A stretch of DNA of 64,000 nucleotides. It comes from Marmoricola sp. OAE513 (GTDB lineage: Bacteria; Actinomycetota; Actinomycetes; Propionibacteriales; Nocardioidaceae). Shown here piece by piece: positions 1,575 to 41,247 of the stretch (position 1 is the stretch's first letter; the number at the start of each line of letters is the position of its first letter). The DNA is taken from positions 2,232,001 to 2,296,000 of the forward strand of contig NZ_JBEPOC010000001.1 of NCBI RefSeq assembly GCF_040546585.1, read 5' to 3'. The notes under the pieces are model-generated. The model saw nothing but the letters and a program-made list of their open reading frames with translations. It did not search any database and was not told the DNA's origin. The position numbers and the translations under genes are program-made.

Positions 1575-2437
1575 CCTCCCCGTTGGTTGAGCCTGTCGAA
1601 ACCAGGGCCGGGTTCATCGGCCTGGGCAACATCGGCAAGCCGATGGCGCTCCGGCTCGCGGGTTGGGAGGGCGGCCTGACCGTCTTCGACCTCGCGCCCG
1701 AGCCGCTGGCCGAGGCCGAGAAGGCCGGCGCACGGGTCGCGTCGTCGGTGGGCGACCTTGCTGCCGAGTGCGGGTACATCTCGGTGATGGTGAACACCGA
1801 CGAGCAGGTGCGCGACGTGATGGGGGAGATCCTCGGTGCGGCCAAGCCGGGCACCGTAGTGGCCGTCCACTCGACCATCTCGCCGGACCTGCCGCCGCGT
1901 CTGGAGGACCTCGGGGGCCGCAACGACCTGCTGGTGGTCGACGCCCCGGTCTCCGGTGGTTCGATGGGTGCGGGGGAGGGAACGCTCGCGATCATGGTCG
2001 GCGGTACCGAGGCCGCGTTCGAGGCCGTCAGCGGACCGCTCGGGCTGATGGGCACCGAGGTCGTGCACTGCGGACCGATCGGCAGCGGCACCGCCGCGAA
2101 GCTGGCGCGCAACCTCCTGCACTTCGTCTCGTTCACCGCGACGGGCGAGGCCCTCCGGTTGGCGGAGGCAGCCGGCATCGACCTGACCGTGCTCGGCAAG
2201 GTCGTCCGGCACACCGACTCGATCACGGGTGGTCCCGGAGCGATCATGCTCCGGGACACGGCCAAGGAGATCCAGCCCGGCGACTTCTGGCTCTCGATCT
2301 TCCAGCACGTGCACGCGCTCGGCGCCAAGGACCTCTCGCACGCGATCGAGCTCGCGGACCGGTTGCACGTCGACGTACCGATGGCTCAGTTCGCGCTCGA
2401 CAACCTCGGCCCGGCACTGGGCCTCCCGAAGGAGTAG
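1571..2437 (+). CDS. NAD(P)-dependent oxidoreductase, 3-hydroxyisobutyrate dehydrogenase-like
   Basis: A 288-aa beta-hydroxyacid dehydrogenase family protein (6-phosphogluconate dehydrogenase NAD-binding fold). The N-terminal dinucleotide motif is GFIGLGNIGKPMA; the substrate motif DAPVSGGSMGAGEGTL and the catalytic-lysine region GSGTAAKLARN follow in family order. The GTG start overlaps the SDR stop as GTGA. The first residues, including LVEPVET, are encoded by a copy of the dispersed GGTTGAGCCTGTCGAAACC repeat (1585-1603), so either the repeat has been absorbed into the N terminus or the true start lies just after it. No good start codon is obvious between the repeat and the Rossmann motif. 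Exact substrate unknown. Confidence 0.88.
   Translation: MTSPLVEPVETRAGFIGLGNIGKPMALRLAGWEGGLTVFDLAPEPLAEAEKAGARVASSVGDLAAECGYISVMVNTDEQVRDVMGEILGAAKPGTVVAVHSTISPDLPPRLEDLGGRNDLLVVDAPVSGGSMGAGEGTLAIMVGGTEAAFEAVSGPLGLMGTEVVHCGPIGSGTAAKLARNLLHFVSFTATGEALRLAEAAGIDLTVLGKVVRHTDSITGGPGAIMLRDTAKEIQPGDFWLSIFQHVHALGAKDLSHAIELADRLHVDVPMAQFALDNLGPALGLPKE
1585..1603 (+). repeat. REP-like repeat translated inside a gene, copy 2
   Basis: The 19-bp sequence GGTTGAGCCTGTCGAAACC is a single arm of the dispersed repeat and lies in frame in the N terminus of the hydroxyisobutyrate-dehydrogenase-like gene, giving the peptide VEPVET. A related arm gives VEPAET in the gene ending at 5852. Confidence 0.75.
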
Positions 2438-17337: not shown

Positions 17338-18018
17338 CTATTCGTACTGCGGCGGGGTCTCCCCGCTCTCGGCGAGCTGCTCGCGGGCCCACCGGGGCAG
17401 GATGAACAGGCCCTCCGCCTCGACCGTCACCTCGCCCTCGGCGTCGCGCAGCTCGCCCTTGACGATCGTCTTGATGCCGGCGCTGGAGTCGACCCACGCC
17501 GACGCGCTGCACGCACCGAGCGCGGTGGGCTTGCGGTAGCGCAGGGTCAGCGTCCCGGTCATGCCCGGCGTCCCTCCAGCGGCGGCGGCCTCGCCGAAGA
17601 TCTGGTCGAGCACCAGCGCGAGCACGCCGCCGTGCACCTTGCCCGGAGGGCCTTCGTACAGGGCGTTGAGGAAGAACTCCGAGGAGGCTCCGCCCTTCAC
17701 CCGGTCCTGGACGATCGTCAACGGGGGAGCGATCGCGTTGCGAAGTCCGACCACCGTGTTGCCGTAACCACGGACCCGGCTGTTGTTCGTGACGACCACC
17801 CCGAAGTTGCCGGGGATCATCTCGGTCTCGAGCTTCGCGGTGAGCGCCTTGACCGCGGCAGTCGCCTCCTCGACGGCGTCGTAGTCCACGGTGGTGCGCA
17901 GGGCGACCTCGTTGAGGCGCCGGAGCGCGTCGGTCAGCCGGCCGTAGACGGCCTGCTCCTCGGCGAACTCCTCGTCGGTCATGTCGACGGTGCGGTACTC
18001 GAACGGGGGTTGGCTCAT
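17338..18018 (-). CDS. PaaI/4HBT-family hotdog thioesterase
   Basis: A 226-aa acyl-CoA thioesterase-like protein. The hotdog core is in the second half: KVHGGVLALVLDQIFGE carries the HGG and Asp of the PaaI active site, followed by the strands TGTLTLRYRKP. The N-terminal ~100 residues are helical and precede the fold. It hydrolyses or sequesters acyl-CoA intermediates, probably in lipid or steroid catabolism. A KstR-like palindrome lies 12 bases before its ATG, in the gap shared with the Ddn-like gene. Confidence 0.88.
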   Translation of the reverse strand: MSQPPFEYRTVDMTDEEFAEEQAVYGRLTDALRRLNEVALRTTVDYDAVEEATAAVKALTAKLETEMIPGNFGVVVTNNSRVRGYGNTVVGLRNAIAPPLTIVQDRVKGGASSEFFLNALYEGPPGKVHGGVLALVLDQIFGEAAAAGGTPGMTGTLTLRYRKPTALGACSASAWVDSSAGIKTIVKGELRDAEGEVTVEAEGLFILPRWAREQLAESGETPPQYE

Positions 18019-18029
18019 GCCAATCAGAC

Positions 18030-33779: not shown

Positions 33780-36700
33780 TCAGGCCTGGCTGCGGTAGTG
33801 CTCGACGATCGCCACGAACTGCTCGGGGTCGACTGTCGCCGGGGTGATCGTGTGCGGCTTGCCGGCCTCGTCCTTGAGGACGGCCTTCCACGCGCGTGAG
33901 TCGATCTTGCCGCTCATGTCGATCTGGGTGGCCGGGTCCTTGAGGTCCCAGCTGACCGCGTCCGAACCCCGCGAGATCTCCAATGTTCCGTTGCTGATCG
34001 AGACGATCGCAGGCGTCCAGTTGAGCAGGGCCCACCAGGTCGCCATCGCCAGCAGGAGGAGGCCGCCCGCAGCGATGAGCGCCGTCGAACCGCCTGCGGA
34101 GACGGCCCAGCCGACCGCGACGACCGCGCCGACCGCGAAGATCACGAACAGGGTGCCGAACAGGTAGCTCAGGGTGCCGCCGGGACGGAACTCGACGAAG
34201 CGCGGGATCGGTTCCGTGGACTTCGCCGGGGTGGAGGCGGATGCTTCCTCGGGCTGTGCGGCCGGCTCGGGCTCGTTGTCGACGTCGAGCTCGTCCTCGG
34301 GCTCGTTCTCGATCTCGGGCTCGGTCTCGGGGTCGACCAGTGCTTCGTGCGCGTCCTCCGGCTCGGCCTCGGGTTCCGGCTCGAGCTCGTTCTCGGGCTC
34401 GTTCTCGACCTCGACCTCGGGCTCGGTCTCGGCCTCGCCGTCGCTGACGGCGGGGATGATGCCGCTGTCGAGGGGGTCGGTCCACTCCTCCTCCACTGCG
34501 GCGTCCTCGAGGTCACCGAGCGTGGTGACCATCGTGTCGTCGTGCGTGAAGTCCTCGATCTCGGCCGGCTCGTAGACGAGCTCGTCGACGCCCTCCTCGT
34601 CCGCGGTCTCCGGCTCAGCCTCGTCCTCGGCCTCAGGTTCTGCCAGGTCGTCGGTCTCGTCCGCGACCTCGGGCTCGGCCGGGGCGTGAGCCTCGTCCTC
34701 GACCTCGGGCTCGGCCGGGGTCTCAGCCTCGTCCTCGACCTCGTCGGTGACGTCCAGCTCCGGCTCGTCGGCTACGAACTGGTCGACGAACTCGTCAGCC
34801 GGATGTTCTGCCTCCGAGTCGTCGGACTCGGGGACCGGCGCGGTGACGGCTCCGGTCCCGGTGGCGGGGACGACCGCGCGCTTGGAGGCAGGTACCGGAA
34901 CTCCGGTGATGTCGGCAAGGGCCGCAGTCGCTGCTCCGCGGGCCGGTGCGGTCGGCGCGACGGCGCGGGCGGACCGCTCCGAGGCCTGGCGCTCCCACTC
35001 GGCACGCTCGTCGGCGATGCGCTGCTTCTCGGCACGCTGCGCGGCGATGCGCTCCTGCTGCTCACGCATCGCCGTGGCGCGACGCTCCTCGCGCTCGAGC
35101 GCGGCGAGCCGCTTCTGCTCGGCCTCCTCGGCCTCGCGGCGCTCCTTCTCCGCAAGGATCTCGGCGCGTCGGGCAGCAATGATGGCGAGTCGCTTGGCCT
35201 CGGCCTCTGCCGCGGCCAGGCGGGCCGCCTCGGCAGCCGTCGCCGCTGCGGTCTCGGCGGCGATCCTCTCAGCCTCCGCGCGCTCGGCGGCCAGGCGCTC
35301 CTCCTCGGCCCGGATCGCGGCCAGACGGTCGGTCTCGGCCTTCTCCGCTGCAGCCTGTTCCGCCGCGAGACGGGTGGCCTCGGCATGCTCGGCCTCGAGG
35401 CGCTCGAGCTCGGCGGCCTCGATCGCGGCGCGCTCGGCCTCGATGGCTGCACGTTCGAGGCGCTCCGCCTCAGCCTGCTGGGCGGCGACGCGGTCACGCT
35501 CGATCCGTACCGCTTCGGACAGCTCGGCGGCGAGCCGGCGCTCCTCTGCCTTGATGGCGATCTGCCGGACGCGCTCGGCCTCCTCGGCCTCGAGACGCTC
35601 GATCTCCAGACGCTCCAGCTCGAGTCGCTGGGCCTCGAGACGGGCTGCCTCGATCCGCTCGGCCTCGAGCCGCTCGGCCTCCAGGCGCTCTTCCTCGGCC
35701 TTGATGGCGGCCAGGCGCTCGGCCTCGAGACGGGCGGCCTCCAGCCGGTCGGCCTCGGCCTGCTGGGCAGCGGCTTGCTCGACGGCGATCCGTTCAGCCT
35801 CCGCACGCTCCGCTTCGAGTCGCTCCTCCTCCAGACGGATGGCCTCGAGCCGGTCGGCCTCGGCCTGCTGGGCAGCGGCTTGCTCGGCGGCGATCCGCTC
35901 GCGCTCCTCGGACTCCGCTGCGAGACGTGCTTCCTCGGCAGCGATGGCCGCGAGGCGCACGGATTCCAGACGCTCGGCCTCGGCCTCCTGGGCGGTGATC
36001 CGCTCGGCCTCGATGCGTGCGGCCTCAACGGCTTCCGCGACGAGGCGCTTCTTCTCGGCCTTGAGCTCCGCGAGCTGCAACCCCTCGAGACGGCCGGCTT
36101 CAGCCTCCTGCGCGGTGATGCGCTCGGTCTCGATGCGGATCGCCTCGGCGGCCTCGTCACGGAGCCAGGTCTGGTGGGCCTCGATGGCGGCGATCCGTGC
36201 GGCCTCGAGCCGAACCTCCTCGGCGAGCTGCGCGTCGGCGCGCTCCTTCTCGATCCGAGCAGCTTCCTCGGCTTCAGCCTGCAGGCGAGCCTCTTCTGCC
36301 TTGATCGCGGCGATCCGTGCCGCCTCGGCGCGACGCTCCTCCTCGAGCTCGCGCTCGATCCGCTCCTCCTCGAGGCGCTTGGCCTCCGCGGCCTCAGCGG
36401 CGATTCGTTCCTGCTCGGCCTGGAGGGCCGCGCGCCGCTCCTTCTCGCGCTGGATCGCCTCCTCGCGGGCCCTTTCGAGCCGCTCCTTCTCGAGGCGCGC
36501 GCGCTCTGCCTCCTCGGCGGCGCGGCGCTCCTCCTCCGCGCGCAGCGCTGCCAGACGAGCAGCCTCGCGCCGCTGGGCCGCTTCCCGGATGGCCTGGAGA
36601 CGTTGCCGCTCGGCAGCTTCGGCAGCGAGCCTGTCCGCCTCGATCTTCTCAGCCGCCTTGCGGGCAGCCTCCGCGCGAACCGCAGCCAGACGCTCGGCCT

Positions 36701-38562
36701 CGAGACGGGCGGCCTCCTCCGCGGCGATCCGCTCGTCCCTCGAGGCGCTTGGCCTCGGCCTCCTCGGCCGCCTTCAGCTCGGCGGCGAGGCGAAGGGCCT
36801 CGGCCTTCTCTGCCGCGATCCGGTCGCGCTCGGCCTTCTCGGCGGCCTTGGCTGCGGCGGCGATGCGCTTCTGCTCCTCGGCCAGGCGCTGCTTCTCCGC
36901 CTGGTCGGCGGCCAGACGCTCGGCCTCGATCCGGTCCGTCTCGGCCTTCTCGATCGCGAGCCGTTCGGCCTCGGCCTCGTCGGCGATCCGCTGAATCTCT
37001 GCCAGCCGCGCGGCTTCGGCTTCCATGGCCTGACGCTGAGCCTCGGCGAGGCGCTCGGCCTCGGCGCGCTCCTCGGCGAGGCGCGCTGCCTCCTGCTCGT
37101 CGGCGATCCGCTGGATCTCGGCCAGGCGAGCGGCCTCGGCCTCGTTCGCCAGGCGAGCCTCCTCGGCAAGACGTGCTGCCTCAGCCTGCTCGGCAGCAAG
37201 GCGCGCTACCTCGGCCTCGGCGGCAAGACGCTCTTCCTCGGCCAGCCGGGCTGCCTCAGCCTCGTCGGCCAGTCTCTGCTCCTCGGCGATCCGGGCTGCC
37301 TCGGCCTCCTCGGCAGCGGCTCGTGCAGCCTCCGCCTCCGCGAGCCGCTGCGCCTCGGCCTCCTCGGCGGCAACGCGAGCGGCTTCCTCCGCGGCGAGTC
37401 GTTCGGCTTCGGCGGCGAGGCGCTCGGCCTCAGCAGCAAGGCGTTCGACCTCCGCCTGCTCGGCCGCGACGCGAGCGGCTTCTTCGGCAGCGAGTCGTTC
37501 TGCTTCTGCCTGCTCGGCGGCGATCCGGGCGGCTTCGGCCTCCTCGGCCAGGCGCTGTTCCTCGGCGAGCCGGGCGGCTTCGGCCTCCTCGGCCAGGCGC
37601 TGCTGCTCCGCCATACGCTGCGCCTCGGCCTCCTCAGCGGCACGACGAGCTTCCTCGGCCTGCTCGGCCGCGACCCTGGCTACCTCCGCAGCGCGACGCT
37701 CGTCGGCCAACCGGGCAGCCTCGGCTTCTTCCGCCGCCGCGCGCTCGTCGTTCAGGCGCTGCTGCTCGTCGCGCTCCGCAGCGAGTCGCTCGTCGTCGGC
37801 CCGGGTGATGTCCGCGGCAGCGACGTCCAACGGGTTCGGTGCGACGTCGTCCTCCAGGTAGGACCCCAGGAAGTCGACCGGAGGTTCGGTGCGCGACTCG
37901 GCCGTCTCCGGTACGGGTACCTCGGTCGCGTTCTCCTTGCGGCGTCGACCGCCGGAGCCGCGTCTCGGGGTCGGCGGCTCGACGGGGATCGGGACGCTGT
38001 TGGTCAGCGGGTCGACCTCGGGTTCGACATCGCGGATCGCCGGGATCTCACCGGTCGCCCACGGCTCCATCGAGAAGGTGTCGTCAGCGAGGTCGTCAGC
38101 CCAGGTCGTGACCCGGGGGAGGTCCACTCCGGAGGCGGTCAGCGGGGAGTCGTCGACGCCGTCCGTGGCCGTCACCTCGCCGGGATCCGCGGCCGGCTCG
38201 GTGGGGGCCTTCGCGGGGAAATCCGGCAGGTCGAGGTCGTCGGCCGGGCTGAATGTCGCGGCCGGCGCGGTGTCCTTGCCCTTGCGACGGCCGAACCTGC
38301 GGCGCTTGGCGGGGTCTTCCTCCAGGGTGCCGAAGCCTGCGCCGTCCTCGATCGACGTACGCAGGACGGCGAGCGGGTCGTAGGCATCAGGGAGCGCGAC
38401 CGGGGTGATCGAACCGGTCCCGGTGTCGTCGCCGGCGTTCTCGAGGTCGTCGAAGGCGATCCGCAGCGGATCGATCACGTCGTCGCCGGATGTGGCGCCG
38501 TCCGTGGGGCTGCTGGGCTCCTCGTCAGGGTTGACGGAGCCTGCGCGGCGACCACGTGCCAC
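33780..38562 (-). CDS. Giant coiled-coil membrane protein, frameshifted
   Basis: Joined across one extra base, the gene encodes about 1593 aa. The N-terminal ~250 residues are acidic and low-complexity. Residues ~255-1194 are almost wholly Ala/Glu/Arg/Leu-rich helical repeats (RLAEEAEAARLAEEQ-like units). A Glu/Pro-rich acidic stalk (~1247-1454) follows. Two membrane helices (~1459-1512) include LFVIFAVGAVVAVGWAV, and an ~80-residue globular tail (LEISRGSDAVSWDL) resembles a PH-like fold. The frame is intact from 38562 to the CCC at 36737-36739, then continues one frame over with no stop to 33780. A Scy/FilP-like cytoskeletal role or a wall-spanning rod are alternatives. Confidence 0.78.
35743..35886 (-). 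repeat. Direct repeat within the coiled-coil gene, 35-codon period
   Basis: A 39-base segment starting AGCCGGTCGGCCTCGGCC recurs at 35743-35781 and 35848-35886, spaced 105 bases (35 codons). It encodes QAAAQQAEADRLE twice and points to recent tandem duplication within the helix. Confidence 0.85.
36737..36739 (-). other. Frameshift point in the giant coiled-coil gene
   Basis: Deleting one base from the CCC run turns KRLEGRADRR into KRLEDERIAAEEAA and joins two open frames. The downstream frame from 36736 to 36080 has no stop and no ATG, GTG or TTG, so it cannot start by itself until a TTG at 36080. Confidence 0.85.
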
Positions 38563-38975
38563 GACCCACCCCTTCCCTGTACCGGCCAGGCCGGTGAGCG
38601 GTGCTCACCAGCAACCTGAACCCTTGCATGTTTGACCATCGAATGCCGCACTTCGCAACGAATTGTCGCACTCGGATTTCCCCATTGTGCCCACGAACCG
38701 CGGACCGAATCGAGCCGTCGTACCGCCCTGCTGAGGGAACGCCGGTCCAATCCTGGGCGAACAATCTTCTCCACAGGCTCCGCGAGGGGTGACAGAACGC
38801 GCTGAGTTGGTAGGCTCGTGCACGCAGGTGCAAGTTCCAGCGGTACACAACGCAGTTGGAGTTTGTGATCCAACGGCGTTTCTTCTCTTTGCGAGGCGGG
38901 ACGACGTATTCACCGCATCTGTGTGAAGAGGCACCGAGGTGGTCGTCTCTCGCCCCAATAAGGAGAAAAACCAGC
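38563..38975. promoter_or_regulatory. Intergenic region between the coiled-coil gene and the cold-shock gene
   Basis: No gene seen. It holds two hairpins near the coiled-coil gene (ACCGGC/GCCGGT at 38581-38595; GGTGAGC/GCTCACC at 38593-38609), an imperfect direct repeat (CGAATGCCGCACT at 38640 and CGAATTGTCGCACT at 38659), and a hairpin GTTGGA/TCCAAC at 38855-38874 in the csp leader. Divergent promoters are expected here. Confidence 0.6.
38789..38816 (+). promoter_or_regulatory. Putative promoter of the cold-shock gene
   Basis: GTGACA at 38789-38794 and TAGGCT at 38811-38816 are 16 bases apart. The predicted start near 38823 would give a leader of about 150 nt, typical of cold-shock mRNAs whose 5' structure controls translation. 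Confidence 0.5.
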
Positions 38976-39179
38976 ATGGCTCAGGGCACCGTTAAGTGGT
39001 TCAACGCAGAAAAGGGCTTCGGCTTCATCGCTCAGGAGAACGGCGGCGACGACGTCTTCGTTCACTACTCCGCGATCCAGTCGAACGGCTACAAGTCGCT
39101 CGATGAGAACCAGAAGGTCGAGTTCGACGTCACGCAGGGCCCGAAGGGCCCGCAGGCGGAGAACGTTCGCCCGCTCTGA
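38976..39179 (+). CDS. cspA: Cold-shock protein (CspA family)
   Basis: A 67-aa single cold-shock domain that binds single-stranded RNA and DNA. The RNP1 motif is KGFGFIAQ and the RNP2-like motif [15 protein letters not shown] at 38960-38965 sits ten bases before the ATG. A long leader and the strong terminator at 39204 show it is monocistronic and probably highly expressed. Base composition and codon use fit a housekeeping gene. Confidence 0.97.
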
Positions 39180-39203: not shown

Positions 39204-39237
39204 CTGAGGGCTTCGACCGTTTGGTCGGAGCCCTCAG
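39204..39237 (+). terminator. Strong hairpin terminator of the cold-shock gene
   Basis: A 15-bp stem CTGAGGGCTTCGACC with one mismatch closes a GTTT loop, 24 bases after the csp stop. There is no T-tail, as usual for actinobacterial I-shaped terminators. Confidence 0.85.
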
Positions 39238-39295
39238 GCAATTCGGGCTAGTTTCGTCCCAGGGCATCCGCCCTCGAGGATCCGGGAGGTCAGTG

Positions 39296-39567: not shown

Positions 39568-39603
39568 GTGTGCCGTTCCGATCCTGCTCTCCTGGAGTTC
39601 ACT

Positions 39604-40221
39604 GTGGCGTTCAGCTTCAAGCCTGTAGACACCGCGTTCTACACGCTGCTCACCGCTCAGGCGGTACACCTCGTCGACGGCGCCGCGCTCCTCGCGGAGC
39701 TTCTCGACGAGGGCAAGGACCGTGCTGATCTCGCCGCCCGCATGCGCGAGGCCGAGCACCAGGCGGACGAGACCACCCACGAGGTCGTACGCCGGGTGAA
39801 CAGCACCTTCGTCACGCCGTTCGACCGCGAGGACATCTACGCGCTGTCGTCGGTGCTGGACGACGTCATGGACTACATGGAGGAGGCCGTCGACCTGGTG
39901 CTCCTCTACGAGGTCGACCACCTCCCCGAGGGTGTGACCGAGCAGATCGAGGTGCTGCAGCGCTGCGCCGAGGTGACCGCCGAGTCCATGCCCCGGCTGC
40001 AGAGCCTGAAGGACCTCGAGGAGTACTGGATCGAGATCAACCGGCTCGAGAACACCGGTGACAAGAGCTACCGGCGCATCCTGGCCAAGCTGTTCAGCGG
40101 TCAGTACGAGGCGCTCGAGGTCATGAAGCTCAAGGACATCGTCGACTCCCTGGAGCACGCGATCGACGGGTTCGAGAAGGTCGCGAACATCGTTGAGCAG
40201 ATCTACGTCAAGGAGTCCTGA
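39604..40221 (+). CDS. DUF47 family protein, PhoU-like phosphate transport accessory
   Basis: A 205-aa all-helical protein of the DUF47/PhoU-like fold, paired with PiT transporters. Acidic helices include HQADETTHEVVRRVNSTFV and REDIYALSSVLDDVMDYMEE, which in PhoU relatives coordinate metal clusters. GTG 39604 follows GGAG by six bases. The stop is three bases before the PiT start, so the products work as a transporter with a regulatory accessory protein. Confidence 0.92.
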   Translation: MAFSFKPVDTAFYTLLTAQAVHLVDGAALLAELLDEGKDRADLAARMREAEHQADETTHEVVRRVNSTFVTPFDREDIYALSSVLDDVMDYMEEAVDLVLLYEVDHLPEGVTEQIEVLQRCAEVTAESMPRLQSLKDLEEYWIEINRLENTGDKSYRRILAKLFSGQYEALEVMKLKDIVDSLEHAIDGFEKVANIVEQIYVKES

Positions 40222-40224
40222 GCG

Positions 40225-41247
40225 GTGACGCTTGCCATCGTCATCGCGGTGGTGGTCGTTGCTCTCGTCTTCGACTACACGAACGGCTTCCACGACGCCG
40301 CCAACGCGATCGCCACCTCGGTCTCGACGCGCGCCCTGACGCCGCGGGTCGCGCTGACGCTGGCGGCGATCATGAACTTCGTCGGCGCGCTCCTGGGTCA
40401 GGAGATCGCGAACACCGTCAAGGACGTGGTCGACGTACCGGACAGCACGCACGGTCTGATCATCGTGATGGCCGGCCTGCTCGGCGCCATCACCTGGAAC
40501 CTGATCACCTGGTACTTCGGCCTGCCGTCGTCCTCGTCGCACGCCCTGATCGGTGGCCTCGTCGGCTCGGCGCTCATTGCCAGCGTCTTCACCGACAACG
40601 GCATCTCGGTGCACTGGGCGAAGATCCTGGAGAAGGTCGTCATCCCGATGGTCGCCTCGCCGCTGTTCGGCTTCGCGTTCGCCTTCGTGGTGATGCTCTC
40701 GATCATGTGGATCTTCCGTCGCCGCAGCCCGCACAAGGTCTTCCGCGGCTTCCGCCTCGCCCAGACGTTCTCGGCCGCAGCGCTCGCCCTGGGTCACGGC
40801 CTCCAGGACGCCCAGAAGACGATGGGCGTCATCTTCCTGGCCCTCATCACGGCGTACCCCGCGACGTACGCCGACGGCGACCTCCCGCTCTGGGTCATCC
40901 TCGCCGCCGCGACCGCCATCTCCGCCGGCACGTACGCCGGTGGCTTCCGGATCATGCGCACCCTCGGCCGGAAGATCATCCACCTCGACCCGGCCCGCGG
41001 CTTCGCAGCCGAGGCAGTCGGCGCGAGCGTCCTCTACACGACCGCCTTCGTCTTCCACGCCCCGATCTCCACCACCCACACGATCACCTCCGCGATCATG
41101 GGTTCCGGCGCCACCAAGCGCTTCTCCTCCGTCCGCTGGGGCGTCGCCCGCACCATCCTCACCGCCTGGGTCCTCACCTTCCCCGCCGCCGGCGCCGCCG
41201 CCGCCGCGGTGTACCTGGTGCTGAAGTTCGTGTTCCAGCTGCCGTAG
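40225..41247 (+). CDS. pitA: PiT family inorganic phosphate transporter
   Basis: A 340-aa integral membrane phosphate (or metal-phosphate) symporter. Family motifs are FDYTNGFHDAANAIATSVSTRAL near the N terminus and GLPSSSSHALIGGLVG near 110, with the mirror motif SVSTTHTITSAIMGSGATKR near 280. About ten hydrophobic segments. Low-affinity uptake, unlike the high-affinity Pst system at 42393-46403. GTG start. PitA or a close homologue; symbol given by family. Confidence 0.9.
   Translation: MTLAIVIAVVVVALVFDYTNGFHDAANAIATSVSTRALTPRVALTLAAIMNFVGALLGQEIANTVKDVVDVPDSTHGLIIVMAGLLGAITWNLITWYFGLPSSSSHALIGGLVGSALIASVFTDNGISVHWAKILEKVVIPMVASPLFGFAFAFVVMLSIMWIFRRRSPHKVFRGFRLAQTFSAAALALGHGLQDAQKTMGVIFLALITAYPATYADGDLPLWVILAAATAISAGTYAGGFRIMRTLGRKIIHLDPARGFAAEAVGASVLYTTAFVFHAPISTTHTITSAIMGSGATKRFSSVRWGVARTILTAWVLTFPAAGAAAAAVYLVLKFVFQLP

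Follow-up and report, generated by a model that had tools for sequence, protein, structure and literature searches.

A frame-split locus of Marmoricola sp. OAE513 reads as one very long rod protein with a predicted C-terminal membrane hairpin and a probable PH-like domain

Several described systems resemble, each in part, the subject of this study. In the DivIVA, GpsB, FilP and Scy group an RGYDxxEVD motif stands before the first coil, according to the account in PMC9858780. A survey of intermediate-filament-like rods covered 26 genomes, that of Nocardioides sp. JS614 among them, and by the selection set out in PMC2680258 its candidates had to be without transmembrane segments. The golgins giantin, golgin-84 and CASP, as outlined in PMC4707255, have a C-terminal membrane anchor and a long extended rod that reaches into the cytoplasm. 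Among bacterial PH-like (PHb) proteins, DUF2244 is described in PMC2817789 as having two N-terminal membrane helices like DUF1200, as intracellular and as apparently missing strand beta-1. We analysed a locus at positions 33,780 to 38,562 of a 64,000-nucleotide stretch of the Marmoricola sp. OAE513 genome (contig NZ_JBEPOC010000001.1, positions 2,232,001 to 2,296,000; hereafter the window), which, as read from its sequence, encodes one protein of ~1593 residues that shares features with all of these systems.

The minus strand from 38562 to 33780 holds two long frames that abut at ~36736-36738. Frame 1 comprises 637 codons, from a GTG at 38562 to a stop at 36649, and frame 2 has 997 open codons between 36773 and a stop at 33780; the pattern of GC by codon position shifts phase between ~36912 and ~36762. 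A Viterbi scan of codon usage, trained on long open reading frames (ORFs) of the same genome, set the frame boundary at 36736-36738, inside the interval 36730-36745 where an earlier sequence-only reading of this DNA had placed a one-base shift. The closest relative found, locus L018 of the same genus, is intact; residues 1-608 of frame 1 align to its residues 50-649 with 62% identity and residues 14-994 of frame 2 to its residues 651-1648 with 67% identity, the seam of both halves falling at one L018 residue. Since each half matches one half of L018, and the two are collinear, they belong to a single gene, which agrees with the earlier view that the gene needs the joined frame; the joined length of ~1593 residues and the rod of ~940 residues given there both fit. 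The same reading had stated that no start codons occur downstream of the shift. This is true of the first 231 codons of frame 2, which contain none of the start type, but not of the remainder, where ten ATG, GTG or TTG codons are found from 36080 on.

An intact homologue in related genomes had been named beforehand as a check, and it was found repeatedly. Every rod-bearing locus of the genus whose sequence is readable over its full length (six of six; L015, L017, L018, L019, L020 and L021) lies in one frame, amounting to ~5 independent unbroken cases because L015 and L017 are near-identical; this count excludes L016, which contains runs of N, and L022 and L024, which end at contig ends. These homologues bear directly on programmed ribosomal frameshifting, which would yield the full protein plus a short form. 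The two long open frames do overlap by ~120 bases, as such a mechanism might use, yet the six homologues cross the site in a single frame and the alignment with L018 runs residue for residue on both of its flanks. We consider programmed frameshifting extremely improbable, and rejected it because the readable homologues are unbroken.

The split in the window is most likely a single-base indel of the assembly, an explanation suggested by the sequence and held with good confidence; it is also the simplest, because the same assembly breaks hisD and other recognisable genes. We scanned 464 kb for changes of coding frame, namely the window and 20 stretches of 20 kb from its own genome, with a procedure that recovered 60 of 60 simulated single-base deletions (in segments of >900 bases, >=300 bases from segment ends). 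Four abutting pairs without a nearby stop (eight pieces) were followed by family models; L101, L106 and others were left out. In three of the four pairs, those of hisD, an OYE-family enzyme and a TIGR00900-like transporter, the gene is split at consecutive model positions, and hisD, which is single-copy in the genome, occupies model positions 1-341 and 340-393 in two different frames. Inspection of the switches by eye revealed no shared DNA motif. With several abutting frame switches, the genome record of this assembly may need polishing.

Alternatively, a real and recent mutation in this strain could have broken the gene, leaving a soluble N-terminal fragment of 637 residues. The break is, after all, present in the sequence as given, and some members of the genus are without the rod, so its loss may be tolerated. 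We nevertheless regard a real mutation as quite unlikely, because there is no further decay (frame 2 remains open for all of its 997 codons with the coding pattern kept) and because other genes, including the single-copy hisD, are broken in the same way. The weight of the assembly indel as the explanation is, for its part, limited in four respects. The frame scan gave some 60 candidate switches in the 464 kb, mostly ordinary neighbouring genes; the large hisD piece was the sole piece above its model cut-off among those followed; in the fourth pair, L096, a profile search of the pieces found no family that spans the switch; and the first version of the scan missed the break in the window, where a short intergenic state lies between the segments, a state for which the later version allowed.

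Pfam and NCBIfam gave no match to either frame at E <= 1, and the architecture was read from the translation, from alignments and from structure prediction. The acidic N terminus of ~250 residues begins MARGRRAGSV, arginine-rich and then acidic, with no hydrophobic stretch visible by eye. In seven aligned sequences the motifs IDPLRxA, DPL, PRVTT and FLGxYL are invariant, and four of these sequences carry in full a longer block around PRVTTWADDLADDTF and EPWATGEIP. Among the loci of the genus, tblastn with the N-terminal region of the window (E <= 1e-5) matched the relatives L015-L020 only; in L021 the N-terminal blocks become partly visible once aligned, and DPL motifs of a similar kind can be seen by eye in L023. 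Hydrophobic stretches, again as judged by eye, are restricted to the C-terminal end, and the predicted hairpin lies there too, in line with the earlier placement of the membrane helices at the far C-terminal end.

The rod, delimited by composition, has ~945 residues and repeats at 5, 10, 15, 25 and 40 residues. Of the two parts of it analysed in the window, one contains a single Pro/Gly and the other contains two. For lags of 5 and its multiples, residue identity in frame 2 was 0.341 versus 0.156 at other lags, with a maximum of 0.203 among 200 shuffles; the pentad effect in frame 1 was weak (0.264 versus 0.223 at other lags, shuffles up to 0.243). The best lag was 40 residues in frame 2, L015, L018, L019 and L020, 15 in frame 1 and 10 in L021, and the 40-residue unit of L019 can be resolved by eye into 15+15+10. 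Midway along the rod, the window, L015, L018 and L019 all retain a tryptophan, in contexts such as EAHESWLRDEA. In seven of the eight rod segments of the genus the signal of Ile, Leu and Val is strongest at 3.61-3.64 residues per turn, L020 peaking elsewhere; these values lie near the 3.63 that PMC9858780 gives for an undistorted helix. None of the eight segments gave a signal of heptad periodicity, near 3.5, above 60 shuffles, the apolar maximum of L015 and L017 at 3.505 being within the shuffle range. Of seven sequences from another genus, all but L081 (L082-L086 and L088) peak at 3.500-3.525. The coiled-coil rod of the sequence-only reading is accordingly retained in part: a helix-type rod of Ala, Glu and Arg of ~945 residues is present, but it is built of pentads and gives no heptad signal above shuffles. 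It is possible that the rod forms a discontinuous or non-heptad coiled coil.

We modelled the last 148 residues with AlphaFold2, which gave a hairpin (helices at residues 18-44 and 47-69), six strands and a helix, at a predicted local distance difference test score of 86.9 with 11 sequences and 88.9 with 30. Foldseek comparison of the model reached probabilities of up to 1.00, with best E-values of 0.010 and 0.018, and most of the 50 PDB structures listed contain, judged by their titles and the nature of the proteins, PH, PTB or FERM-F3 folds. The small C-terminal domain noted earlier is indeed present, and on this model it is likely to be PH-like. Against Pfam and NCBIfam the C terminus gave only matches below cut-off. 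DUF2244 (PF10003) matched 2 of 30 members of the module (hairpin plus PH-like domain) at E <= 0.1, with a best E of 0.0031 that is below the curated cut-off, and was absent from the matches listed for the window's own C terminus. By hhalign, ten bPH_2 (PF03703) proteins gave 88% in a partial match covering the hairpin together with the beginning of the domain, and bPH_6 (PF10756) gave 54% with A4 and 6% with A2; neither family was among the Pfam matches listed for the module. Membership in bPH_6 was considered and set aside in view of the weak profile match. A sequence search of the PDB returned one irrelevant match (E 1.8), and searches of plasmids and phages with the in-frame C terminus returned none.

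The nearest likeness of this C terminus is to the PHb proteins (DUF2244, bPH_2/DUF304 PF03703 and DUF1200), which combine membrane helices with an intracellular PH-like domain. In the PHb fold seven strands form two sheets, with a C-terminal helix, and the model here has six strands and a helix; the description of DUF2244 in PMC2817789, with two membrane helices and apparently no beta-1, fits this model. The locus differs from the PHb proteins in that no Pfam bPH family matches above cut-off and in its N-terminal extension of ~1,400 residues, none being so described in the parts of PMC2817789 that deal with these domains.

The module was found in 22 of 24 genomes of the genus (own genome included, paralogues pooled), in 63 of 197 of the family sample and in 37 of 196 of the order sample, in which three matches outside the family cover the hairpin and little more. 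What stands in front of it differs. The pentad rod precedes the module in the window and in L015-L021, and a heptad coil does so in six of the seven sequences of the other genus. L023 (7823-14962) has a frame of 2380 codons with the module and with a Pro/Glu/Ala/Thr-rich stretch, probably disordered, in place of the rod; the composition test found no rod in it. Short, rod-free members of the genus have frames of 337-533 codons (L076-L078, L090 and L091). By sequence comparison, then, the module is widely conserved and the part preceding it varies in kind and length, and this front part reads as exchangeable in kind. The own genome holds a second copy of the hairpin and PH-like domain without a rod (G000:C1:384630-385013, L089), in a frame of 208 codons. 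In the other genus, a module protein of ~1500 residues is directly followed in L082-L084 (G028, G190 and G207) by a frame of 265-523 codons that carries the module a second time; because the second copy adjoins the module protein there, the module may work in pairs.

Taken as a whole, our reading is that the locus would encode an indel-cut, tail-anchored cytoplasmic membrane tether or scaffold of ~1593 residues in which the rod sets the reach, and we put the chances of this for and against as about equal. It is suggested by the conserved tail anchor and the conserved N-terminal motifs with the long rod between them. The predicted hairpin and PH-like domain would anchor the tail in the membrane. 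As no hydrophobic stretch is seen by eye before the C-terminal hairpin, the N terminus and the rod are placed in the cytoplasm, where the PH-like domain would also lie. The rod would project inward by up to ~140 nm (945 residues at 0.15 nm), and the N-terminal motifs at its far end would bind a partner. A rod of the same kind outside the cytoplasm would also adjoin membrane helices as a long Ala/Glu-rich helix. TolA has such an envelope-spanning helix. We judge this arrangement very unlikely, because the N terminus is arginine-rich and then acidic, hydrophobic stretches occur by eye at the C-terminal end only, and 140 nm would be longer than any wall space.

As to function, the main alternative is a polar cytoskeletal protein that forms filaments and acts as Scy, FilP or DivIVA do, with membrane helices in addition. 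It would account for the presence, in an actinobacterium, of a helical rod that is very long and rich in Ala; FilP and Scy are likewise Ala-rich, with hendecad stretches, as PMC9858780 describes them. Neither RGYD nor GYD..EV, however, occurs in any of the 16 sequences scanned (the two window frames plus 14 relatives), Pfam matches neither frame, the genome elsewhere has three DivIVA-family matches of its own, two of them over the cut-off, and L023 has no rod. A polar filament therefore seems rather unlikely, and membership in the DivIVA/FilP/Scy group was rejected for want of the RGYD motif and a Pfam match. As the sequence-only reading had anticipated, the protein is unlike Scy, FilP and DivIVA: with DivIVA, Wag31, FilP and Scy it shares a long helical actinobacterial rod, Ala-rich as in FilP and Scy, and it differs from them in the missing RGYD, the predicted C-terminal hairpin anchor and the pentad-built repeat. 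With the intermediate-filament-like proteins it shares a rod of >80 residues between head and tail, as PMC2680258 defines them; the predicted hairpin membrane helices set it apart. To the golgins, which are eukaryotic, it is similar in plan only, by analogy.

Several results pull against the tether or scaffold, or narrow it. The Ile/Leu/Val peak exceeded all 60 shuffles in only two of the eight segments, L015 and L019; no Foldseek match passed E 0.001; and the rod is assumed to be fully extended. With the N-terminal region of the window, tblastn at E <= 1e-5 gave no match in L021, L023, the short members or other genera, so the statement that both ends are conserved is limited to rod-bearing members, the matches being confined to L015-L020. 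Long reach is not needed by all, since several members of the genus are short, and other genera may have evolved their spacers independently. A wider proposal is more tentative, and we think it doubtful: a Nocardioidaceae class of tethers in which a conserved tail anchor is joined to an exchangeable reach element, be it a straight pentad helix, a heptad coil or a disordered chain of ~2,000 residues. Such a class would keep the far-end docking motifs among its rod-bearing members and would represent a convergent bacterial counterpart of the tail-anchored golgins.

Table 1. Features of the locus, its neighbours and other frame switches in the same genome (window coordinates unless a locus is named)
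Feature	Position	Strand	Basis or remark
N-terminal part, frame 1; GTG start 38562	36739..38562	-	ORF reading, codon-frame scan, L018 alignment
C-terminal part, frame 2; stop codon 33780-33782	33780..36735	-	ORF reading, codon-frame scan, L018 alignment
Site of coding-frame change; readable relatives in one frame here	36736..36738	-	Viterbi scan, L018 alignment
Acidic N-terminal region, invariant columns in seven sequences	37813..38562	-	Alignment A6
Rod, ~945 residues, 30-36% Ala, 25% Glu, 13-16% Arg; pentad units, 40-residue super-repeat	34959..37812	-	Limits approximate
Ala/Pro linker and acidic stalk, low complexity	34227..34958	-	Translation
Two predicted membrane helices	34020..34175	-	AlphaFold2; membrane location inferred from hydrophobic sequence
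Probable PH-like domain, six strands and C-terminal helix	33786..34007	-	AlphaFold2, Foldseek
Cold-shock protein gene (Pfam CSD), divergent	38976..39179	+	Conserved neighbour in genus
Short acidic ORF, 48 aa	39296..39442	+	Conserved
PhoU_div/DUF47	39568-40221	+	Conserved neighbour
PHO4-family phosphate transporter	40225-41247	+	Conserved neighbour
hisD frame switch	L095 ~17470-17495 (G000:C1 ~317,500)		Abutting frames
OYE-family enzyme frame switch	L098 ~18001-18027		Abutting frames
TIGR00900-like transporter frame switch	L105 ~1742-1747		Abutting frames
Frame switch without family match across	L096 ~13003		Abutting frames

The order of module gene, cold-shock gene, short acidic ORF and PhoU_div is kept in 15 of the 18 genus loci fetched with flanks, with ~3 kb before PhoU_div in five of those 15 (L074, L076-L078 and L090); the remaining three (L022, L024 and L092) end at a contig end on the PhoU_div side. 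This neighbourhood says little about function. The short acidic ORF has no Pfam match; CrsL was weighed as a relative of it, by description only, and rejected, the CrsL operon being crsL-otsA in the account of PMC12709188. The cold-shock gene and its leader (38840-38975, ~130 bases) are strongly conserved in seven genomes, and the leader is, on the basis of this conservation, a candidate temperature-responsive RNA leader. Rfam at the gathering threshold matched only one tRNA between 28000 and 44000, with no family at the leader. A conserved inverted repeat at 39205-39245, just 3' of the cold-shock gene, is perhaps its terminator.

A search of the open-access literature found no paper describing this protein, and we rate it as a membrane-anchored rod protein with an unusual repeat, from an uncharacterised family. 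Very long membrane-anchored rods may have gone unlisted because the survey in PMC2680258, by the design given there, excluded membrane segments. A tail anchor of fixed fold behind a changing front part would serve as a natural experiment to ask whether selection acts on reach, on stiffness or on sequence. The pentad and 40-residue repeat, in which 40 residues make 11 turns at 3.636 residues per turn, would be an unusual helical rod, and one that could be made and measured.

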